The notes below the pieces were generated by a model. That model ran no database searches. It had not been told where the DNA came from and saw only the letters and a list, made by a program, of their open reading frames with translations. From a virus: DNA of 24,503 nucleotides. Shown here piece after piece: positions 1-17,136 of this stretch (positions within the stretch are counted from its first letter, which is position 1; each line of letters begins with the position of its first letter). The stretch lies in IMG/VR virus record IMGVR_UViG_3300045051_000346, positions 1-24,503 of that record; one strand, written 5' to 3'. The position numbers and the translations under genes were made by a program.

Positions 1-623
1 ATGGGCTCCTTACGCCCCTTGTTCTTCTCCGACAGGAACCGTTGCAACTGGCTATTGATCTCCTGAGCTTGCTGCTGCTTGTAGACCTGGGCCTGCTGCT
101 GCTCGAATCGTTCCTGCCGGTCCTGCTGCATCTGGATGAACTCTTGCATCTGCCTCTGCGTCATCTGGATTCCCTGGTCTACCCGTCTGAGGTAGGCCAT
201 CGGATCCTCGTCTGCTTGCGGAGGCTGTGGCTGGTACTGTGGCTGCTGATACTGGGGCTGGTAAGGTTGCTGCTGTCGAACTGGAGGGGCTTGGCCTCCA
301 CCCATGCGTTCCTGGTATTGGGCGGCCTGAGCCTGCTGGAACTCCGCTAGCTGCTGCTTATAGGCGATATTCTCTCGGCTGATGCGGTCCGCTTCCCTGG
401 CCCTCTGGAAGGCGTTGATGACGCCCTCGGGAGTGGTTCCCAGGTTCTGAGCGATGCCGTCTATATAGTCGCGGGGTACGTCTTGGACTTCCCCACGATA
501 CTTGATCTGATACGTTTCGCTCTGCGGTTCCGGTGCTGGCTCCGGGGCCGGTGTGGGCTCCAGGGTCTGCTGTGGTTCTGCTCCCTCTCCCGGTAGGAGT
601 TGGGACACATCTTCTGCTGCCAA
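1..623 (-). CDS. Scaffold-like Q/P-rich virion protein, C-terminus cut by the window edge
   Basis: I start this at TTG 623-621 because AGGAGG lies 4 bases upstream and an acidic, proline-rich N-terminus follows. About 207 residues are visible before the left edge. An acidic P/E/A stretch comes first, then a segment resembling the start of phage scaffold or capsid-assembly proteins (IKYRGEVQDVPRDYIDGIAQ), then a long helical region very rich in Gln (QQQP and QYQQPQYQPQPPQ runs) with charged heptads. Low-complexity helical composition and a place downstream of portal are typical of capsid scaffolds, so the major capsid gene should follow beyond position 1. Family membership is inferred from composition and order, not from a diagnostic motif. 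Confidence 0.75.
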   Translation of the reverse strand, partial: MAAEDVSQLLPGEGAEPQQTLEPTPAPEPAPEPQSETYQIKYRGEVQDVPRDYIDGIAQNLGTTPEGVINAFQRAREADRISRENIAYKQQLAEFQQAQAAQYQERMGGGQAPPVRQQQPYQPQYQQPQYQPQPPQADEDPMAYLRRVDQGIQMTQRQMQEFIQMQQDRQERFEQQQAQVYKQQQAQEINSQLQRFLSEKNKGRKEP

Positions 624-645: not shown

Positions 646-837
646 TTAAGCGTTCTGTGAAGGGAACTCGACTGGAGCTTTCCTCGTCTCCCCGTTGGAG
701 TCGATATGGATCAGCTCTGCCGACGTTCCGGTATCGTCTCTCGAATCGAGTGCTCCGTTCCCGCCGTTGCTGCCTCCGGTGGGTCGGGACGTGATTTCTA
801 CTCTGGGGTTGAGCGGGATACGCCCAAGGTCAGCCAT
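646..837 (-). CDS. Small hypothetical protein in the head operon (63 aa)
   Basis: Starts ATG (MADLGRIPLN) with AGGTGG 6 bases upstream and ends 22 bases before the scaffold-like gene. The sequence is polar with a Gly/Asn-rich loop (TGGSNGGNGA) and no Cys or membrane segment. The frame is open upstream to an ATG at 909, but those residues look like a shadow of the preceding gene, which overlaps by 8 bases. I do not recognise a family. Its place between portal and scaffold suggests a minor head or assembly role, which is inference. Confidence 0.55.
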   Translation of the reverse strand: MADLGRIPLNPRVEITSRPTGGSNGGNGALDSRDDTGTSAELIHIDSNGETRKAPVEFPSQNA

Positions 838-991
838 TGATGCCACCTGATTCCAGCGTGCCTTCTCCGACTTCGAGCATCGAGGTATCGTTCGTCCCGA
901 CGACCGCATTGACGAGCGGCGCTGGGGATGCCTGGACGTTTGACGCCTTGGGGACGGAGGTAGCGGGAGAGGTGGAGATATTGGCCTGCAT
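830..991 (-). CDS. Small Ser/Thr/Ala-rich ORF, start uncertain
   Basis: The reading frame ends in TGA overlapping the next gene's ATG, as real genes here do. The composition (SPATSVPKASNVQASPAPL, then VVGTNDTSMLEVGEGTLESGG) is that of a virion surface protein rather than random reading. The ATG at 991-989 has no good ribosome site. The frame is open further upstream to a stop near 1078 and continues plausibly (GTLEGTGPNKLGTTTGPARA), but offers no ATG, GTG or TTG there. The true start may therefore be unusual. No family recognised. Confidence 0.4.
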   Translation of the reverse strand: MQANISTSPATSVPKASNVQASPAPLVNAVVGTNDTSMLEVGEGTLESGGING

Positions 992-1083
992 GGACGTGAA
1001 ATTGAGCGCCCTCGCAGGCCCAGTCGTGGTGCCCAGTTTGTTCGGACCGGTTCCTTCTAAAGTTCCCGTATCAGTTCACTCCC

Positions 1084-1515
1084 TTACTTTCCGACGAGTT
1101 TGTAGTTGACTGCTAGGTAGAGGCTGTCCGAAGACGCCGCACCGATGACGAAGTAGACTGCGGAGTCCGCAATCGTGGTGATATTGGGAGTCATGGCGAC
1201 TCCCTTGATTCCGCCCGATGTCATGGCCTCCGAATACTTGAACTGACGCTGGGATCCAGCTACCCTGAGCGCGGACGTGCCTGAGACGATATCAACGAAC
1301 ACCTGGTTCGTGTTCGCCGCGTTGTCCCACCACATGTAGACGCCGTTGATGTAGGCTCGCTTCCCGTTCATGATCGACGCGGTAAGCGTGCTATCAATGC
1401 CCACGTCGGCTGCCGTGGCAACGACAACGGTCTGGAACTCCGAGTTCTGGCAGATGCCGAAGGTGGAGAGAGCGAGAAGCAGGACCAGGACGGTCAAGGC
1501 TGCGATCTTTCTCAT
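1084..1515 (-). CDS. Signal-peptide-bearing protein between portal and scaffold (143 aa)
   Basis: ATG overlaps the portal stop (ATGA). Residues 1-21 form a clear Sec signal: basic MRK, hydrophobic LTVLVLLLALSTFGI, then CQNSE. The Cys does not sit in a standard lipobox because Ile precedes it. The remaining ~120 residues are rich in Ser, Thr, Ala, Val and Asn with alternating polar and hydrophobic residues, which suggests an all-beta fold like phage decoration or fibre proteins. A secreted protein inside a head operon is odd. It could be a decoration protein whose leader is really a membrane anchor, or an exported host-modifying factor. The coding call is strong; the function is unknown. Confidence 0.75.
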   Translation of the reverse strand: MRKIAALTVLVLLLALSTFGICQNSEFQTVVVATAADVGIDSTLTASIMNGKRAYINGVYMWWDNAANTNQVFVDIVSGTSALRVAGSQRQFKYSEAMTSGGIKGVAMTPNITTIADSAVYFVIGAASSDSLYLAVNYKLVGK

Positions 1516-3410
1516 TTACTCTCCCCCCCTCCGTTGGATTTGGGTTTACCGTTAGGCCCCTGAGCGTCTGCTTGGGCCTGCATCTGAGCTGCGAACATGG
1601 CGGTCATCTCGGGAGGTTGCGGCTGCCCGGTAATCATCTGGTAGGACATCGGGTCAGTCATGATCGAACCCACCGCCACCATCTGGACCACCATCTTCTG
1701 GAGTTCCTTCGCCTTCTGGGGTCGGATCCCATAGCTCGGCAAGAGTATCGGTAGAAGTGGGATCATCCTGGGATCGAAGAGGAGTCCAGTTGAGACAAGC
1801 GCCTGTACGTTCTGTCCTTCGAGCGCGTCCTTCTCGATCTCGTCTGGGTCTGCCTCGATTCTGATGGCGATACCGGGAGGAAGCTGCGATACGTCGAATC
1901 GGATCGTCTCCAGTTCCCCGTTTGGCCCCTGGACCATGTAGGGACGTTCCCCAACGTAGTTCTGCCTCATGAGCTGGAACACGATATTGGCGAAGTCGGA
2001 GTCAAACTCGTTCATCTGCTTCAAGTGTCGGCCAATCCTCGTCGAAGCCAGCTTCGCCCTAGTCTGGAGTTCCTTTCCTGACGTTGCGGTGACCGGAGCC
2101 GCACCGGAGAGCACTTCCGACACCCCAGACTGGTCCTCGAAGTCCCGGCGGTTGGTTTCATCGAGCCAGGAGAGGAGTTGCATATTCACGTTGTTCGGAG
2201 TGACGACGTGAGCCATGCCCGATAGCTCGGGCGGGACGTGGACGACCTCTCCGGGGGCATTTCCCTTGTTGTCGTAGCCGTCCGCGCCAATCGGGACCTC
2301 CAGATTCCCGATAAGGCTGATTCGGGCCACGTCCAGAGCGATGGCCATGGTCTTATCCGCGACCATCTGGGAGGATTTCAGTCTTGCCACGATGCCGGGA
2401 CCCCAGAAACGGTCTGTATCCCAGTAATGGGTGTATTCTGCCATCGGAATGACATCAATTAACTCGTACGGGGACTCTCCGTCGTAGAGTTCGTAGTCCG
2501 CATTGATGACAATGAGCCTTCCGTAGGGGAAGGCCCTTGAATAGTTGGTCGATTCCTTGACTGGGGTGCCGTACTGGTCCCAGTTATACTTCGCTTCCTC
2601 GTAAATCATGTCGTCTCGGATCCAGACCATCGGCAAATTGACCTTGCACGAGCGGATAGTGCGGTCTTTCCCGAGAATCATGTCTCCACCTGGGCCGTTG
2701 ACGAGTTCGTCGTCCGTTCGGCTCCGAGAAACGGCGTCCTCGGCACTCAAAGTGCTCAAAACTTCCCCGCCAACGGGCTTCAGCTTCGCCTTGACGTTCG
2801 GGGAGACCTTCTCAAGGGCCTCAATCGCCCTCGAATAGTCTAAAGAGGGCTCGTAGATGAAGTACCGGCACTGGGAAAGCCGTATTGCGGAGGGGTCGTT
2901 ATAACATCTGGAACTATCCGCCAGTTCAGCACAGATTTCGGCTGCCTGGATGCCCATTGCCTCTGCCAATTTGTCGGGTTTGGTGTAGACATGGGCAAAC
3001 GCCTTGCCATTGGTGGACCCCTCGATGAAGATGTCCCGCCTCAATTCGTGCCACCGGAGCCTGCGGAGTTCTGCCTGGACCGCTTTGGAGGCCATTTCGA
3101 GCTGTTCCGTGGTTACATCGTCGGAGACGGGCTCGGCATGCACGGTGGGAGTGGCATCGAGGACCATTGCAGCGGTCTGATCTACGACCTGGACGAGTCG
3201 GTTTCGGACCGTCTTGGCCTTCCACTCGTCCTTGGTCATGTGGTACCTGTTGGTCGGCGTCGGCCAGTGGTTCTCTCCGCGCAAGTAATTCCGGTTATCA
3301 GCAAAACCGGACGTGAACTTGCGCGCCTGGGACCTGGCCGCCTCGATCAGACACCGGGCCAGCTTGTACCCTGGCTTTTCGGTGTCTTTTTCTACTTCTT
3401 CGTCCGCGAT
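1512..3410 (-). CDS. Portal protein (head-tail connector, podovirus type)
   Basis: A dodecameric portal forms the DNA entry vertex of the procapsid and docks terminase. The ~590-residue core from TTG 3284 has portal hallmarks: an N-terminal helical part with NRLVQVVDQTAAMVL, a mixed central region (MVWIRDDMIYEEAKYNWDQYG; WDTDRFWGPGIVARLKSSQMVADK), a stem-like helix with SGVSEVLSGAAPVTATSGKELQ, and a Q/A/P-rich tail. The frame stays open above 3284 to a stop at 3416-3414 and encodes a convincing N-terminus (ADEEVEKDTEKPGYKLARCL, later FADNRNYLRGENHW). The first start-like codon there is ATC at 3410, 6 bases after GAGGTG; CTG at 3362 is an alternative after CAGGG. I use 3410 and treat the start as unproven. 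It follows the terminase genes and overlaps the zinc-ribbon gene by 19 bases. Confidence 0.88.
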   Translation of the reverse strand: MADEEVEKDTEKPGYKLARCLIEAARSQARKFTSGFADNRNYLRGENHWPTPTNRYHMTKDEWKAKTVRNRLVQVVDQTAAMVLDATPTVHAEPVSDDVTTEQLEMASKAVQAELRRLRWHELRRDIFIEGSTNGKAFAHVYTKPDKLAEAMGIQAAEICAELADSSRCYNDPSAIRLSQCRYFIYEPSLDYSRAIEALEKVSPNVKAKLKPVGGEVLSTLSAEDAVSRSRTDDELVNGPGGDMILGKDRTIRSCKVNLPMVWIRDDMIYEEAKYNWDQYGTPVKESTNYSRAFPYGRLIVINADYELYDGESPYELIDVIPMAEYTHYWDTDRFWGPGIVARLKSSQMVADKTMAIALDVARISLIGNLEVPIGADGYDNKGNAPGEVVHVPPELSGMAHVVTPNNVNMQLLSWLDETNRRDFEDQSGVSEVLSGAAPVTATSGKELQTRAKLASTRIGRHLKQMNEFDSDFANIVFQLMRQNYVGERPYMVQGPNGELETIRFDVSQLPPGIAIRIEADPDEIEKDALEGQNVQALVSTGLLFDPRMIPLLPILLPSYGIRPQKAKELQKMVVQMVAVGSIMTDPMSYQMITGQPQPPEMTAMFAAQMQAQADAQGPNGKPKSNGGGESK

Positions 3411-3586
3411 TTGTTACACCTCAAGTCGGGGAGGTTGCCTTCGCAACAGGTTTCCTGGTAGTTGCACTCGGCGTTACTGCATACCAGCTTTTGTCGGCTC
3501 GGGAAGAGGATGTGTCCGCAGCATGGGCAGATCGGCTCAGGTGGATGATTCGTGGATTCGATCAATTGATCTACTTCCTCGGTCAA
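3392..3586 (-). CDS. Small zinc-ribbon protein between large terminase and portal (64 aa)
   Basis: ATG overlaps the large terminase stop (ATGA). The protein has a CPCCG knuckle, a 15-residue loop, then CSNAEC and a later ETCCEG, giving a likely four-cysteine zinc ribbon. Its tail is basic (CNKSRTKK). Similar short zinc ribbons are common in phages, but none has a role I can assign here. The position suggests a DNA-binding accessory of packaging or a translational regulator of portal, which is inference. Its 3' end overlaps the extended portal frame. Confidence 0.7.
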   Translation of the reverse strand: MTEEVDQLIESTNHPPEPICPCCGHILFPSRQKLVCSNAECNYQETCCEGNLPDLRCNKSRTKK

Positions 3587-5064
3587 GCGACCATCCAGCC
3601 CGTCTCTGTGTTCGGGATGTTGAGTCTGTACTTCCGGTGGTCTATTTGGTACATAGGGGAGTCGTAGTGGACGGCTAGCGCAAGTCCTGCGGCAATGACT
3701 TCGTCGTCATGGTACCCATCCAGATGGTCCACCTTACGGTCATCGTCAAGCTTTACAACCGTACCCATTTCCACCAGTAAGTCTCGGTTTGGCACCCATT
3801 CGCCTTCTCGGAGAGCCTTGGCAATGGCATCGTAAATGGCCATTCTGTTTGAGGACAGGGTACGCCATCCGTAGGAATCATCGTAGGTGCGCCTAACAGC
3901 ATTCCATTTCCTCTGTCGATAGAGGTTATGATATCGAGTACGTAGTTCCTGTATGACGGTCCCGCCGTGGTCGTTATTGGACTCCACCACAATCTGGGCA
4001 TTGTTGTAATATTTCCCGAGTGGGAGTACTCCATCTGATGCGAAAAGATTGGCATCTACCTGGTTGCTTTTCCACTTCGCCGCGCAAGCAAGGTCTTTAC
4101 GATCGAGAACCCATGCGCATGAGAAATCGCGGCCAATTCCCCCAGCGCAATCCACCCCGAGAATATATGCGTGACCGGGTGCTGGAGGCCTGTATACGGT
4201 GAGATGCCCGTTAGAATCTTTGCTGAGGATCGGCCCAGACATGGCAGCGTGTTTGATAGAGTATCGCTCACTCGTCTCACCCTTGATCCGTTCCCTTGTC
4301 TCTTCGATCAGCTTCCCGTTGAAGTAGCACGAGCCGGAGAGAAGTCCGAACTTCCCCATTACACGAGCTTCCCATTCCGCTTCCGAGTACCCGGCCTGGA
4401 AGTCCGTTAGTTCCTTCTCCGACCAGAACCCACCATGAGACTTGCTCGCATCGAGCTGGGTCACGGTGAAGGTTTCCACGTCCGGGAAGCAGCGGGTTTC
4501 CTTGTCCCAGAGTTCCTTGTGGCTCCATGAGAACCCCTGGAGTGGAGTGAATGTCATCCAGATCTTGAGCGGAATCCCTGGGGCACGGCGGGCATAGACC
4601 TCGTGAAAGACCTGCCTGCCGTTTTCCCCTACGGGCTCTTCGTCGAACCATGCGGCGGTTAGCCCCGCACCTTGGAATTTCTCGAAGCCGCTCGACGGGT
4701 CCGCCGACTTGATGTGGATTTCCGACCCGTTGGGTAGGATGAATGCGGGGGGCTGTGCTCTCCATTTAGTGCCCGGAGGCATGTACGACTTGAGCCGATC
4801 CCGCATAACGAGGCCGAGACTCTGATGGTCGAGGGCGATGGCCCAGCAGAGATTCGGAACTTGATACTTTTCCCCGGTATAGGGGTTATTCCCGTCAGAG
4901 ACGCAAGCCAAGAGGTGAGCGCCGCAACTAGTTTTCGAGGTGCGGTTTCCGCCAGCAAGGACTCTAATCTGAGCATTTGACTTAAGGAAGGGGAGCAGGG
5001 CCGGGTATGGCTGGTATTTGAGCCACGGCTTCTGCTGGAGTCTGCGGTCGTATTCCTCAAGGAT
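3583..5064 (-). CDS. terL: Terminase large subunit (ATPase and nuclease)
   Basis: This is the packaging motor and headful or site-specific nuclease. The coding frame contains a Walker A-like GGNRTSKT at 4930-4953, a Walker B WFDEEP with its catalytic Glu, and an RNase H-type nuclease half with three acidic clusters: ILGVDCAGG, IVVESNND and HLDGYHDDEV. The first in-frame ATG/GTG/TTG is TTG 4911, but that start would remove the Walker A motif, so it cannot be the functional start. The frame is open to a stop at 5106-5104. I set the start at ATC 5064, which has AAGGA 7 bases upstream, giving 493 residues, a normal family length. The Walker A has Ser where most have Gly before Lys. Identity is certain; the start is not. 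Confidence 0.93.
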   Translation of the reverse strand: MLEEYDRRLQQKPWLKYQPYPALLPFLKSNAQIRVLAGGNRTSKTSCGAHLLACVSDGNNPYTGEKYQVPNLCWAIALDHQSLGLVMRDRLKSYMPPGTKWRAQPPAFILPNGSEIHIKSADPSSGFEKFQGAGLTAAWFDEEPVGENGRQVFHEVYARRAPGIPLKIWMTFTPLQGFSWSHKELWDKETRCFPDVETFTVTQLDASKSHGGFWSEKELTDFQAGYSEAEWEARVMGKFGLLSGSCYFNGKLIEETRERIKGETSERYSIKHAAMSGPILSKDSNGHLTVYRPPAPGHAYILGVDCAGGIGRDFSCAWVLDRKDLACAAKWKSNQVDANLFASDGVLPLGKYYNNAQIVVESNNDHGGTVIQELRTRYHNLYRQRKWNAVRRTYDDSYGWRTLSSNRMAIYDAIAKALREGEWVPNRDLLVEMGTVVKLDDDRKVDHLDGYHDDEVIAAGLALAVHYDSPMYQIDHRKYRLNIPNTETGWMVA

Positions 5065-5089
5065 TGCCCGGTCCTTGTCAGTGAGACTC

Positions 5090-5200
5090 CTAGCGAAGGA
5101 AGATCACGGCCAGCCCCGCAAGGAAGCCAGCCAAGAGGCATCCTAGAACCATGCCGACCCAGAGCCCGAGGGCGTATTCTTCTTCCAGTTCGCCCTTCAA
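5090..5200 (-). CDS. Single-pass membrane peptide between the terminase subunits (36 aa)
   Basis: TTG at 5200-5198 overlaps the small terminase stop (TTGA), with AGGA 6 bases upstream. The product is KGELEEEYALGLWVG followed by a long hydrophobic helix (MVLGCLLAGFLAGLAVIFLR) with small-residue packing, so it should be one transmembrane segment with an acidic N-terminus. The stop lies inside AGGAG, a likely ribosome site for the large terminase. Overlap at both ends argues it is translated. A membrane peptide here is unusual; a lysis or exclusion role is possible but unsupported. Confidence 0.55.
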   Translation of the reverse strand: MKGELEEEYALGLWVGMVLGCLLAGFLAGLAVIFLR

Positions 5201-5688
5201 TCGTCTTCCTCGGTCCTCTTGCCCAAGACCTCCTCGACTTTCGCCAAGAGTTCGGCGTCCGAGTAGGAACTGTCTTGGACGATGTTCTGGTTGACGACAT
5301 TGACATTCCCGGCCTTCTTCAGATTCCCCGCAAGTTCCTCCAGGGTCCTTCCGGCCTTGAGCCGTGTGTCCTCCTTGTCGCTTTCGAGCAGAGCCCTTAG
5401 CTGGGGTCGCCATTCGACAACCATGTAGAGGAGCTCAGTATCAAGCCGGTCCCGGACTCCGGCGAGGACTCGCTTGTCGGTCTGGGCGGCTCGTACTCGG
5501 GCAGGAGAGATGCCGAGTAAAGAGGAGACGGAGGCAGCGGACGGTAAGCCTCGTTCTGCCTTCTCTCGATGGCTGAGGGCGTACCACTCCGTGAGCGCGG
5601 TGAGCCGCTCCTCGGTGAGATTCCCCGACCTAACACCGCTTTCACCTTCCTCGATCTTGACGATCTTGACTTCAGCGACGCTCCTCAC
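5197..5688 (-). CDS. terS: Terminase small subunit, probable
   Basis: This would be the DNA-recognition partner of the large terminase. The protein has 163 residues, a usual size. Residues ~30-70 contain a helix-turn-helix-like stretch (ASVSSLLGISPARVRAAQTD). A long helix (LRALLESDKEDTRLKAGRTLEELAGNLK) could oligomerise, and an acidic tail (KVEEVLGKRTEEDD) may bind the large subunit. The call rests on this architecture and on position directly upstream of terL. The GTG at 5688 sits immediately after AAAGGGAG, a poor spacing, so the real start may be slightly downstream. It overlaps the previous gene by 17 bases. Confidence 0.75.
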   Translation of the reverse strand: MRSVAEVKIVKIEEGESGVRSGNLTEERLTALTEWYALSHREKAERGLPSAASVSSLLGISPARVRAAQTDKRVLAGVRDRLDTELLYMVVEWRPQLRALLESDKEDTRLKAGRTLEELAGNLKKAGNVNVVNQNIVQDSSYSDAELLAKVEEVLGKRTEEDD

Positions 5689-6098: not shown

Positions 6099-6391
6099 GG
6101 ACCTAAGAAGCCCGAACTTGTATCAAATAAAGCCCTGCAAATGCCTTCACGCGCGTCATGGGCCGCTACCGCAATCCGGTCCTCAAGTTTGTTAGACTTA
6201 CGCAACTCGGGAAGTTGCGCGATGAACTCCAGTCGACTCGCCCTCTTCTCCGCCTCAACCTTGGCATGGCAGGCGTCGTGCTGAAGATCCGACTCCTCCC
6301 AGCCGTGGTCCCCGTACTCCTCGTCCTCATATATAACCTCATTGCAGACCGAGCAGTACGTCTTGACCGGCTCCCTCACCGAGTCAGCCAC
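6083..6391 (-). CDS. Small protein with a CxxC...HxxxC motif (102 aa)
   Basis: GTG start has GGGAG seven bases upstream. The N-terminal third carries CSVC and HDACH spaced by an acidic stretch (YEDEEYGDHGWEESDLQ), which could bind one zinc. A basic/acidic helix follows (EAEKRASRLEFIAQLPELRK), then a helix with REGICRALFDT. The stop overlaps the next gene's start. It belongs to the string of zinc-type proteins preceding the terminase genes. Function unknown. Confidence 0.62.
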   Translation of the reverse strand: MADSVREPVKTYCSVCNEVIYEDEEYGDHGWEESDLQHDACHAKVEAEKRASRLEFIAQLPELRKSNKLEDRIAVAAHDAREGICRALFDTSSGFLGPWMKP

Positions 6392-6684
6392 CTCGACTCC
6401 CAGTCCGATACCTCCACATCGACCGCCTTCTCCATCTCCTCCAAGTCGGCCTCCCTCTTCGCCCTCAATGCCTCCAGAACCTCCTCAGATGGCCCAGGTG
6501 ACACGATCTTCTCTGGAACGAATACCCGGGCCTGCAAAGCCACAACCTCGCCCTTGAGGTCAGCAAGCGCCTTCCGGAGCTCGTCTATCTGCTCCTTGAA
6601 GGACAGACCTCGGCCAGCCAGTGCACTCACCTCGGCGTCGCACTTGCCTGGCCCTAACCGACTTTCTGAAGGATTTTCTTTCAA
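6376..6684 (-). CDS. Coiled-coil protein with an N-terminal MKEN...LGPGKCD motif (102 aa)
   Basis: TTG start with GTGAGG upstream. The first 16 residues match those of the next gene upstream (6681-6953), including LGPGKCD. After that it is a predicted coiled coil (FKEQIDELRKALADLKGEVVALQARV), a hinge (PEKIVSPGP) and a second charged helix (SEEVLEALRAKREADLEEMEKAV). The shared leader plus a different body suggests partial duplication or domain swapping. No family recognised. Confidence 0.62.
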   Translation of the reverse strand: MKENPSESRLGPGKCDAEVSALAGRGLSFKEQIDELRKALADLKGEVVALQARVFVPEKIVSPGPSEEVLEALRAKREADLEEMEKAVDVEVSDWESRWLTR

Positions 6685-7085: not shown

Positions 7086-7203
7086 TGGAGGCGTCACTCG
7101 ACTACTGGTCGCTTGGCGATTCCCTTTCCCGCCCTTTGCCCTGGCTTTGTGTAGTCTGCTGAGGCTTGGGTAATTAGTCGCCGCGTCCCATTCTGCCACC
7201 TTG

Positions 7204-7218
7204 TCAGGACCGCCTAGA
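7204..7218 (+). repeat. 15-base repeat TCAGGACCGCCTAGA (copy 2)
   Basis: Exact second copy of 7071-7085. Confidence 0.75.
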
Positions 7219-7311
7219 GCTTTCGTTCCGGCTGGAGTGTGAGCCCATCGCGACTGAGCTAGCGACTTGAATGGCGTGCTAGGTCACCCTGTCTCTCGTT
7301 CTAGTTGTCGT

Positions 7312-7560
7312 CTAGTCTCTAGGCTTAGGCTCAAGTACCCTCCACGCGTTCTCAAACTGACGTATCGCAGCATCTAGGTGCGTCCCCTGCCTCCGTGCCC
7401 GTCTGAGCTCTCTCTCGGCTTTCTTGAACCGGACCCAGTCTTGTTGATTGACTACCCTTAGTCCGTCGAGGACGGTCCCGGTCAAGTCATGGATGGAAAG
7501 AGCAGGAACGAGGAGCGTTGACTTTGGAACCGGATCGCTTGGTGCATGTTGGTAGCGCAT
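7312..7560 (-). CDS. Hypothetical protein, first leftward ORF (82 aa)
   Basis: ATG start; a G-rich stretch (GAGGGGCG) lies rather far upstream, so the ribosome site is weak. The C-terminal half is a basic helix (VRFKKAERELRRARRQGTHLDAAIRQFENAWRVL) and the N-terminal half is mixed (PKSTLLVPALSIHDLTGTVL). A single basic helical region could bind nucleic acid. Its 5' end faces the rightward operon across 181 bases containing the operator, so it could be the divergent partner in the switch. No family recognised. Confidence 0.5.
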   Translation of the reverse strand: MRYQHAPSDPVPKSTLLVPALSIHDLTGTVLDGLRVVNQQDWVRFKKAERELRRARRQGTHLDAAIRQFENAWRVLEPKPRD

Positions 7561-7658
7561 CGCTCGGTGCTTCGCCCCTCGCTTCTGCTTTTGTCGTTCG
7601 CTTCGCTCACTCTTAAGGAAGACCCTTTTTAAATTGGCTGTAGAGTGATGAAAAAAGA

Positions 7659-7687
7659 TTGACAGGGACCTATCCCTGTGCTACCAT
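7659..7687 (+). promoter_or_regulatory. Rightward sigma70-like promoter of the early operon
   Basis: TTGACA at 7659-7664, a 17-base spacer, and TACCAT at 7682-7687. A transcript starting near 7694 would have a ~48-base leader before the TTG of 7742, with GGAGG at 7728-7732. The spacer is almost filled by the inverted repeat 7662-7679. Confidence 0.7.
7662..7679. promoter_or_regulatory. Palindromic operator inside the promoter
   Basis: ACAGGGA, four bases, TCCCTGT: perfect 7-base arms lying across the -35 end and spacer. Protein bound here would block RNA polymerase, so this is the best candidate operator in the window. The first gene product (7742-8050) is a plausible autoregulator. Confidence 0.65.
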
Positions 7688-7741
7688 TGCAATTGGCGTG
7701 CACACTGAAGTAAATGGGATGTTGGGCGGAGGAAGGGTTAA

Positions 7742-8050
7742 TTGAAAGAGCGCCAAGAACTTGGACGCCAAAAGAGGTACCGCTACCATGTCACACTCAA
7801 TCTTGAAGAAGATGAAAAAAATGTCTTTGAGGCAATGGCACAGGCTTTTAGATCCGATGGCAAGGCGCGGCGTGGCTTCTCGGAAGCGACTCTTGAACTA
7901 TGTCGCATCGGAGTCGCCTGCATCCGTTACCATGAGCAAGAGAAAGACCCTCCGCAACGACTGTCGGTAAGTGAAGCACTAGAAGCAGGTCTCACCGTCC
8001 CAGGCCTCTCCCGCCAGAAGAATACCCTATACCGGGAAGAAGAGGAGTAG
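7742..8050 (+). CDS. First gene of the rightward operon; possible DNA-binding regulator (102 aa)
   Basis: TTG start with GGAGG nine bases upstream and a strong promoter and operator 55 bases before it. The N-terminus is basic (MKERQELGRQKRYRYHVTLNL), followed by helical segments (EDEKNVFEAMAQAFRSDGKA; FSEATLELCRIGVACIRYHEQ). A short beta-strand then two helices is reminiscent of ribbon-helix-helix repressors, which bind palindromes such as the one upstream. I see no diagnostic signature, so the regulator role is inferred from position and shape. The stop falls within a purine run (EEEE). Confidence 0.65.
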   Translation: MKERQELGRQKRYRYHVTLNLEEDEKNVFEAMAQAFRSDGKARRGFSEATLELCRIGVACIRYHEQEKDPPQRLSVSEALEAGLTVPGLSRQKNTLYREEEE

Positions 8051-10038: not shown

Positions 10039-10265
10039 GCTATCTACTTCGCATCAGCCGGTTTGGAGTGGACAAGGCTACGTCAATCCATCCGACCTTC
10101 CAAGATGCCCTGGACCGAGCCAAGGCGCTCGTCAAAGTCTACACAGAGCATGCAGTCGATATCTATAACGAGGACAGGATGGACGGCAACATCACAAGCG
10201 AAGGGACGCAGTTCTTTGACGGGCTCACCGATGATGAACGGGACGCCCTCTACGAGGAGATATGA
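10035..10265 (+). CDS. Hypothetical protein before the ERF gene (76 aa)
   Basis: ATGA overlap with the previous gene. Reads MSYLLRISRFGVDKATSIHP, a helix (FQDALDRAKALVKVYTEHAVDIYN) and an acidic end (LTDDERDALYEEI). Looks like a small alpha/beta fold. The stop overlaps the ERF start, so they are translationally coupled and it may assist recombination, which is inference. Confidence 0.65.
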   Translation: MSYLLRISRFGVDKATSIHPTFQDALDRAKALVKVYTEHAVDIYNEDRMDGNITSEGTQFFDGLTDDERDALYEEI

Positions 10266-11233
10266 GCGAAGGACAGATCATAAGCGGCGGGCCTGGGGAT
10301 CCCATTCAATTCATCCCAGGACGCAAAGAGCGAAGCGACTACATCGGCAAACTAGCCGAAGCCCTGAGCAAGGCCCAAGGCGCTATGGAAGGAGCATCGA
10401 AGAGCGCCGAAAACCCCTTTTTCAAGTCCAAGTACGCGGACCTGGCCTCTGTGTGGGACGCCTGCCGTGGTCCCCTTTCGGCTAACGGGCTGGCAGTTAT
10501 CCAGGTGCCAGCTGCGCCCACAGCGCCCGGACGGGTCGCCATTGATACCATCCTAGCCCACGCAAGCGGCGAGTGGATCTCTGGCGTTCTTGAGTTGACC
10601 CCCGTCAAGTCAGACCCGCAGAGCGTCGGGTCCGCGATTACCTATGCACGCCGTTACGGCCTCCAAGCCATTGTTGGAATCGCGCCTGAGGACGATGACG
10701 GCAACGCCGCATCTGGAACCGATAAGGCGGGAGTCAATCCCAACCTCTGGCCCAGGGCGCTCACCAAGGAAGAGGTCAAGGCCAAGGAGGCAGCAGGACA
10801 GCTCAAGGGACAAAAGCCCTTTGTTAGGCCCCCATCACCAGAACAAGCCGAAGAGGCCCGGAAATGGGCGATGGACGCAGCCACAGATCCGGGCGACGAA
10901 GAGGCTCCCGCGTATCTCACGTCCCGAGTCGATCGTGGAGATATGGCCACGGTGCCGATTCAGGATCAGCTCAAGGCCATTGAGGACGCGGCAAGAGCGA
11001 AGCACGGCGTAACTGAGAACTGCGAGAAATGCCACGCACAGCTAGTCACCGGGATATCAAACTCCAAAGATAACCCCGGAAGGAAATACATGGTTTGCCA
11101 CCACGCATATCAGCAAAGGGCCAAGCTGCAGAAGGAAGGAAAGACCGAAGCAGAGATCGGTAAGGCCCTTAGTGGACATACGCGGTATTGGCTGCCCCAG
11201 GTTCCACCCGTCATGTCGGAGGGAGGTCGCTAG
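10262..11233 (+). CDS. erf: ERF-family single-strand annealing protein
   Basis: ERF proteins bind single-stranded DNA and anneal complementary strands, circularising or recombining phage DNA. The N-terminal ~150 residues carry the family features: IGKLAEALSKAQGAMEGASK, NPFFKSKYADLASVWDACR, and the hallmark GSAITYARRYGLQAIVGIAPEDDDG. A Pro/Lys linker (~155-250) follows, then an unusual C-terminus with CEKCH near 252 and a later MVCHHAY, which may form a zinc site and bind DNA or a partner. At 323 residues it is longer than many ERF proteins. ATG overlaps the previous gene. A partner exonuclease would be the DEDD enzyme at 15237-15890. Confidence 0.92.
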   Translation: MSEGQIISGGPGDPIQFIPGRKERSDYIGKLAEALSKAQGAMEGASKSAENPFFKSKYADLASVWDACRGPLSANGLAVIQVPAAPTAPGRVAIDTILAHASGEWISGVLELTPVKSDPQSVGSAITYARRYGLQAIVGIAPEDDDGNAASGTDKAGVNPNLWPRALTKEEVKAKEAAGQLKGQKPFVRPPSPEQAEEARKWAMDAATDPGDEEAPAYLTSRVDRGDMATVPIQDQLKAIEDAARAKHGVTENCEKCHAQLVTGISNSKDNPGRKYMVCHHAYQQRAKLQKEGKTEAEIGKALSGHTRYWLPQVPPVMSEGGR

Positions 11234-16526: not shown

Positions 16527-16542
16527 GGAGGTCTCCGGGATG
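16524..16542. promoter_or_regulatory. Overlapping back-to-back ribosome binding sites
   Basis: The segment AAGGAGGTCTCC supplies AAGGAGG to the RNA ligase ATG at 16540 and, on the other strand, GGAGACC to the TTG at 16526. Only 13 bases separate the two starts, leaving no room for promoters. Confidence 0.6.
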
Positions 16543-17136
16543 AGGAAGATAGTTAGCCTGTACCAGCGCAATTACGATGGCGACAGACTGGTGAGAGATG
16601 AGGTCGTGCCTGGAGCGGAATGGGTGATTGCTGGGGAAGGCGTGCCAACGCGCAAGTTTGATGGGACATGCTGCATGGTCAAGACGGGAGTCCTCTATAA
16701 GCGATTCGACGCCAAGCAGGGCAAGGAGCCGCCTTACGGATTCGTACCAGCTCAAGACCCAGACCCAGTTACTGGCCACTGGCCCGGATGGATTGAGGTC
16801 GGAAACGGAAACGAAGATAAGTGGTTCCGCGAGGGTTGCGGAAAATCATGGCCGAAGTGCGACGCGCCAGACGGGACATATGAATTAGTCGGCCCCAAGG
16901 TCCAGGGGAATCCGGAAGGTTTCGAGCACCACACGCTAGTTCCGCATGGAAAACATATCCTTGCAGACCTTAATCCGCGTAACTATGAAAACATCAAGCA
17001 TTACCTAGGCTACGGGGATATTGAGGGTATCGTCTGGCACCATCCCGACGGACGCATGGTCAAGATCAAAGCCAAGGACTTCGGCATCAGACGCCGAGCG
17101 GCACAATCTTCTCCGCATACCCAATCGCCTGTTTAG
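16540..17136 (+). CDS. RNA ligase family nucleotidyltransferase (DUF5565-like, 198 aa)
   Basis: ATG eight bases after AAGGAGG. Motif I is KFDGT with the AMP-accepting Lys39 (TRKFDGTCCMVK). ELVGPKVQGNPE (115-126) matches motif IIIa, IEGIVWHHP (161-169) motif IV, and KIKAKDFG (175-182) motif V with both Lys. All ligase motifs are intact, so it should seal nicked or broken RNA using ATP. The small single-domain form resembles phage proteins labelled RNA ligase/DUF5565. No polynucleotide kinase or tRNA-cleaving partner is visible nearby; the tRNA-like element at 12879 is on the same strand. The stop overlaps the transglycosylase gene by 50 bases. Confidence 0.9.
   Translation: MRKIVSLYQRNYDGDRLVRDEVVPGAEWVIAGEGVPTRKFDGTCCMVKTGVLYKRFDAKQGKEPPYGFVPAQDPDPVTGHWPGWIEVGNGNEDKWFREGCGKSWPKCDAPDGTYELVGPKVQGNPEGFEHHTLVPHGKHILADLNPRNYENIKHYLGYGDIEGIVWHHPDGRMVKIKAKDFGIRRRAAQSSPHTQSPV

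Follow-up and report, generated by a model that had tools for sequence, protein, structure and literature searches.

Near-cognate codons as likely starts of the terminase, portal and several other virion genes in a podophage lineage

How is the gene for a large terminase subunit (TerL) translated in full if its reading frame holds none of the usual start codons ahead of the Walker A motif? The question is raised by one viral contig of 24,503 bases, from a podophage seen solely in metagenomes, which was analysed at its whole length and is called the window here. Throughout, NTG stands for ATG, GTG or TTG, and SD for Shine–Dalgarno. The TerL frame is open on the minus strand from 5103 to 3586, bounded by TGA 5106-5104 upstream and TGA 3585-3583 at its end, and the only in-frame codons between 5106 and 4911 that count as starts in table 11 are ATC 5064, CTG 4998, ATT 4968 and TTG 4911. 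Since Walker A (4953-4930) precedes TTG 4911, the first in-frame NTG, this codon is too late to be the start. The initial annotation had described this frame, running without NTG through Walker A, and it was right in its landmarks (the stop at 5106, AAGGA ahead of ATC 5064 and a 36-residue ORF upstream).

3583..5085, minus strand: terL, without NTG start; placed by a coding signal from 5085 or 5079 and by alignments
4930..4953, minus strand: TerL Walker A, GGNRTSKT; precedes the first NTG, TTG 4911
5090..5200, minus strand: 36-codon ORF with one predicted-looking membrane (hydrophobic) segment; its TTG start overlaps the TerS stop, and it ends at TAG 5092-5090

The frame matches terminase profiles (Pfam PF03237, 1.9e-8; PHROG 2, 8.6e-24; T4 gp17 profile, 2.7e-9) and carries the aligned motifs WFDEE, GVD, VVE and HDD, with Walker B and the nuclease acidic residues present. 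Its Walker A departs from GxxxxGK[ST] in having Ser, not Gly, ahead of Lys-Thr; the relatives have GPNRGGKT, or GPNGGGKT in L151, and GGKT is kept by 5/5 aligned relatives. This residue calls for caution and makes TerL activity less certain, membership in the family being assigned by the whole profile. As a matter of chance, a 64-codon run free of NTG is expected in a few per cent of cases (NTG makes up ~4.7% of codons here) and is not very rare by itself. For such a run to cover the start of a gene is rare: among 38 terminases with a closed 5′ end in related loci, only one other, that of L122, has no NTG upstream of Walker A.

The window contains a second such gene, overlooked by the initial annotation, which is the portal gene, and a few further genes whose starts may be unusual.

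1512..3410, minus strand: portal, putative start ATC 3410 (MADEEVEKDTEKPGYK); no NTG until TTG 3284
5197..5679, minus strand: small terminase-type gene, TerS by position; putative start GTC 5679 (MAEVKIVKIEEGESGV), placed by SD spacing
830..1069, minus strand: small gene, possible start ACG 1069 (MGTLEGTGPNKLG); first NTG is ATG 991; homolog at 1847-2110 in G001
6376..6621, minus strand: small gene, possible CTG 6621 start after SD GAGGTG; TTG 6684 upstream as alternative

Upstream of TTG 3284, the portal frame continues without a stop as far as TAA CAA ATC GCG GAC GAA GAA. The 42 residues thus added at the N-terminus lift the score against the PHROG 156 portal profile from 75.3 to 82.9 bits and move the first matched profile position from 51 to 11. 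ATC 3410 aligns with the portal ATG of L151 (IAD against MAD; tblastn places residue 1 at L151:6337), and an SD, GAGGTG 3422-3417, stands at an aligned spacing of 6. ATC 3410 is the probable start, with ADEEVEK as the predicted N-terminal peptide. In TerS, a near-perfect SD (AAGGGAGGTG, 5695-5686, -13.5 kcal/mol) lies at an aligned spacing of 6 from GTC 5679, while the sole NTG candidate, GTG 5688, falls within this very SD; GTC 5679 is probably the start. ACG 1069 makes a weaker case, ATG 991 being also possible, and that for CTG 6621 is weak. Outside this set, the window encodes an ERF-type single-strand annealing protein (10262-11230, plus strand; Pfam ERF, 3.8e-23), in place of which G001 shows a weak RecT match, and an early-type gene with an RNA ligase domain (16540-17133, plus strand; Pfam RLIG1, 3.5e-11).

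Used alone as single-sequence queries, neither TerL nor the portal found a relative, and relatives were gathered by profile and DNA pattern searches; a host search by one genome-contig scan returned distant terminases only and no host. The most informative relative is G001 (40 kb), whose TerL is 48% identical to that of the window and which shares its gene order TerS-TerL-portal. The G001 portal has 57 codons without NTG, and its candidate starts are GTC, aligned with the window ATC, or, by SD, TTA two codons on. Its major capsid gene has 54 codons without NTG, with ATA at the N-terminus of ordinary relatives; gene 10160 has 87, and its ATC aligns with the ATG of the L151 ortholog; in gene 9583, ATA aligns exactly with the TTG of the tandem paralog 9295. 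In G001 TerS, the SD and the alignment with the window GTC both agree with ATA, and G001 TerL fits GTA; the two genes have upstream NTG codons too. SDs at usable spacing accompany GTC, ATC, ATA and GTA starts, some of them only moderate (-4.9 for the capsid gene, -3.6 for 10160). The capsid gene is identified through its L151 ortholog, which has matches among annotated major capsid proteins, and through PHROG 'major head protein' matches within the family; fold prediction gave a pLDDT of 30 and no usable fold. Glycosyltransferase genes (GT2, GT17) lie at L137:4776-5525 and 7186-7947 (plus strand), in the virion-gene region of G001.

The second terminase without NTG upstream of Walker A, in L122, belongs to the same small clade and fits a CTG start. 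In TerL and portal of the window, in portal, capsid, 10160 and 9583 of G001, and in TerL of L122, the conserved N-terminus offers no NTG, and for three of these genes the proposed first residue corresponds to an NTG codon in an ortholog or paralog (portal, ATC/ATG; 10160, ATC/ATG; 9583, ATA/TTG). G002, G003 and L151 have ordinary starts in these genes where 5′ ends are covered; therefore, non-NTG starts are confined to part of the clade.

To put numbers on these cases, we scored the coding signal of the stretch that precedes the first NTG, with a threshold of at least 6 and codon models trained per genome. Such a signal was found in 2/26 genes of the window and 3/49 of G001, and in none of the 130 genes of the controls phiKMV, N15 and ctEqG8. 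A wider control of 205 genes in 47 loci returned three flagged genes, two of which were dismissed, that of L043 as antisense-looking and that of L060 for a frame break; at L060:3560-3760 (plus strand), a terminase frame is disrupted by a frame change within the conserved domain. The third, in the unrelated contig L101 (IMGVR_UViG_3300034760_000017; 200-502, plus strand), is apparently a real case: a gene of ~100 codons without any NTG, fitting an ATC start (ATC GGT GGA ACC AAA) after AGAGAGG. Frames 6928+ and 16045+ of G002 were judged false reading-frame calls, the former lying opposite better genes. Lead length, that is, the number of codons before the first NTG, was abandoned as a statistic since it is swamped by antisense and upstream open stretches, and tallying SDs against codons automatically across the whole gene set gave too much noise, coding starts being poorly estimated.

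Two properties of the starts themselves speak for initiation. Third-base variants of NTG occupy the SD-appropriate place in 8/11 inferred starts, against a background of 13.8% (p 1.5e-5, or 1.4e-3 when two codon choices are allowed per gene for the same 11), and in 5/8 genes of a strict set (p 0.002; 0.03 with two choices). The second residue is Ala, Gly, Ser or Thr in 9/9 of the starts, the window TerL left out, as compared with 30% in gene interiors (p 2e-5) and 67% at canonical starts; a small second residue of this kind is what one usually sees where the initiator Met is processed. Gene sets for these enrichment tests were hand-curated, and the p-values are guides.

We therefore consider it likely that terL, the window portal and several virion genes of the relatives are translated from near-cognate, non-NTG start codons. 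This is one of the possibilities named in the initial annotation, that of a rare start codon, and it gains support from the aligned ATG and TTG starts of relatives, from SD position and from its recurrence in several genes. In such a mechanism, the 30S subunit would be placed by SD pairing, by reinitiation after the stop of an overlapping upstream gene, or by both, as the sequence supports, and the initiator tRNA would then accept a codon that differs from NTG mostly in the third base: ATC, ATA, GTC, GTA and perhaps TTA and CTC. Acceptance by the initiator tRNA is suggested by the homologs with ATG or TTG at the same residue, together with the second-residue signature; methionine would presumably be inserted at these codons. 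The purpose may be lower or coupled synthesis. TerL and the portal are present in few copies per virion, and for them such a purpose would be natural; it would be less so for the capsid gene.

Two sequence elements bear on the position of the terL start itself.

5087..5092, minus strand: TAGGAG, in which the TAG 5092-5090 stop of the 36-codon ORF overlaps an SD-like AGGAG; 1 nt from CTC 5085
5062..5076, minus strand: AAGGA 5076-5072, a 7-nt spacer and ATC 5064; the candidate preferred in the initial annotation

The start is perhaps CTC 5085, a choice we hold at somewhat short of even chances. The codon-model score places the onset of coding signal at 5085 or 5079. From CTC 5085, the second residue would be Thr and 19 residues would stand ahead of a conserved PW, close to the 20-23 found in TerL of G001, L122 and L151. 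A structure model of TerL (pLDDT 56) has a helix beginning at residue 3 counted from CTC 5085, which may lend weak support to the same codon. On the other hand, CTC 5085 lacks a usably spaced SD, as AGGAG stops just 1 nt short of it; initiation there would therefore depend on ribosomes that reinitiate after TAG 5092-5090.

ATC 5064 is a possible, if somewhat less favoured, start. It is better served by its SD (AAGGA, -3.6, aligned spacing 3) than CTC 5085, and ATC is of the codon class used at other starts in the clade; it would leave only 12 residues ahead of PW, a shorter N-terminus than in relatives, with Leu second. The AAGGA that had recommended ATC 5064 as the best candidate, with its 7-nt spacer, keeps this codon a serious contender, whereas the N-termini of relatives, Thr as second residue and the onset of coding signal favour CTC 5085. 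We regard AAG 5076, GAC 5079 or some other codon as unlikely. AAG 5076 has an SD of -5.3 at a spacing of 7, and both AAG 5076 and GAC 5079 are at the right distance from AGGAG, yet they are poor start codons and so less likely. Comparison with close terminases, which the initial annotation had proposed for identifying the codon, comes nearer to CTC in N-terminal length without fixing the first residue of terL. The predicted N-terminal peptides are TDKDRAILEEYDR from CTC 5085 and MLEEYDR from ATC 5064.

Relaxed start-codon recognition, through a host or phage factor that makes NTN efficient and not through gene-by-gene regulation, would account for the predominance of third-base changes and for the ATA start of the G001 capsid gene, whose product is necessarily abundant. 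We consider such a factor improbable: most SD-supported starts in these phages are still NTG (39 found), as are the starts of most of their genes; no tRNA gene was found in the window, G001, G002 or G003, nor any initiation-factor-like protein by profile search; and G002, G003 and L151 are ordinary. A broader form of the idea, to which we give slightly more credit but which is still rather unlikely, is that the podophage lineage or its host tolerates any third base in a start codon; NTN, even the capsid ATA, would then be efficient and start codons would drift, while SDs and stop-coupled reinitiation set the site.

Programmed frameshifting is a very improbable source of the pattern. TerL would then be a fusion, made by ribosomes that shift +1 out of the 36-codon ORF at CGC-TAG-G or that start at CTG 5081 and shift -1. 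Several features invite this reading: the TerL coding signal takes over at the end of the ORF, TerL is in the +1 frame of this ORF, AGGAG lies 5 nt before CTG 5081 and, in G001, ATGATGA at the TerS stop is in a frame requiring a -1 shift. Nevertheless, there is no XXXYYYZ or RF2-type site in the window between 5200 and 4931 or in G001, and the 36-codon ORF is not conserved, being missing between TerS and TerL of G001. Different genes would moreover require different shifts, and the exact alignment with ATG or TTG in portal, 10160 and 9583 would be left unexplained. The fusion to the upstream ORF suggested by the initial annotation thus finds little to sustain it.

A shade less probable still is that the window contains an error of sequence or assembly, or that the gene is decaying. 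Its best arguments are that IMG/VR holds no near-identical second assembly of the window and that Ser replaces Gly in Walker A. Against it, several genes show the same pattern, and so do three phages; apart from their starts the frames are long and uninterrupted, with the other terminase motifs conserved, and an error would have to have hit the terL and portal starts separately. Independent assemblies confirm both relatives: the L122 phage was assembled three times, each from another metagenome and with the same bases at the TerL start, and G001 differs from L115 by 10 mismatches in 2.7 kb, with the portal start in agreement. The sequence error entertained by the initial annotation does not fit these data. 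Ordinary starts at the corresponding site of relatives, which it had counted against a rare codon, do exist in homologs of portal, 10160 and 9583, but near-cognate codons stand in several genes of this lineage at once and, therefore, a single base error is no explanation. The missing start of terL is not isolated, nor is it likely to be a sequencing error. Finally, that TTG 4911 is the true start, with the upstream Walker A homology as a relic, is next to incredible even though it is the earliest usual start codon in frame, as it would cost Walker A and ~50 conserved residues, and coding signal and homology extend to 5085-5079.

Near-cognate initiation, as we propose it, matters first for annotation: gene callers restricted to NTG mis-start or truncate terminase, portal and capsid here, and in one case Walker A is lost. 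If confirmed, these phages would offer a natural set of near-cognate starts in genes that are essential and differ in expression, for which relatives with ordinary starts could serve as controls, and the acceptance of ATC, ATA and GTC by bacterial ribosomes would be directly testable. It would then also be justified to scan viral genomes for genes whose coding signal precedes the first NTG, L101 being an unrelated case among the controls.

Among described phages, the podophage ctEqG8 (MW202795) combines a P22-like portal with a T4-type terminase, and the window matches both types by profile; its terminase is only 27% identical to that of the window, however, and its start codons are ordinary. 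Our literature search turned up no paper describing phages that use non-NTG starts repeatedly. In bacteria, AUA starts in infC, ccpN and citZ and an AUU start in cvfC1 were mapped in S. aureus by ribosome profiling and reporters, in which ccpN, citZ and cvfC1 gave ~10-30% of the output of AUG; in infC, ccpN and cvfC1, initiation is predicted to be guided by an extended SD (PMC13009471). The near-cognate codons reported here are likewise changed in the third base. Those of S. aureus belong to single regulatory or housekeeping genes, whereas ours, predicted from sequence, belong to several structural genes of a phage clade, capsid, portal and terminase among them, and some SDs of these phages are moderate. 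E. coli infC and pcnB have AUU starts (PMC4245954) and resemble our cases in that a non-NTG start serves an essential or low-expression gene; these are two genes in a whole genome, while firm cases amount to 2/26 scored genes in the 24.5-kb window and three to four of 49 in G001. Single non-NTG starts are thus known in bacteria, and it is their repeated use in core virion genes of a phage lineage that is unusual.
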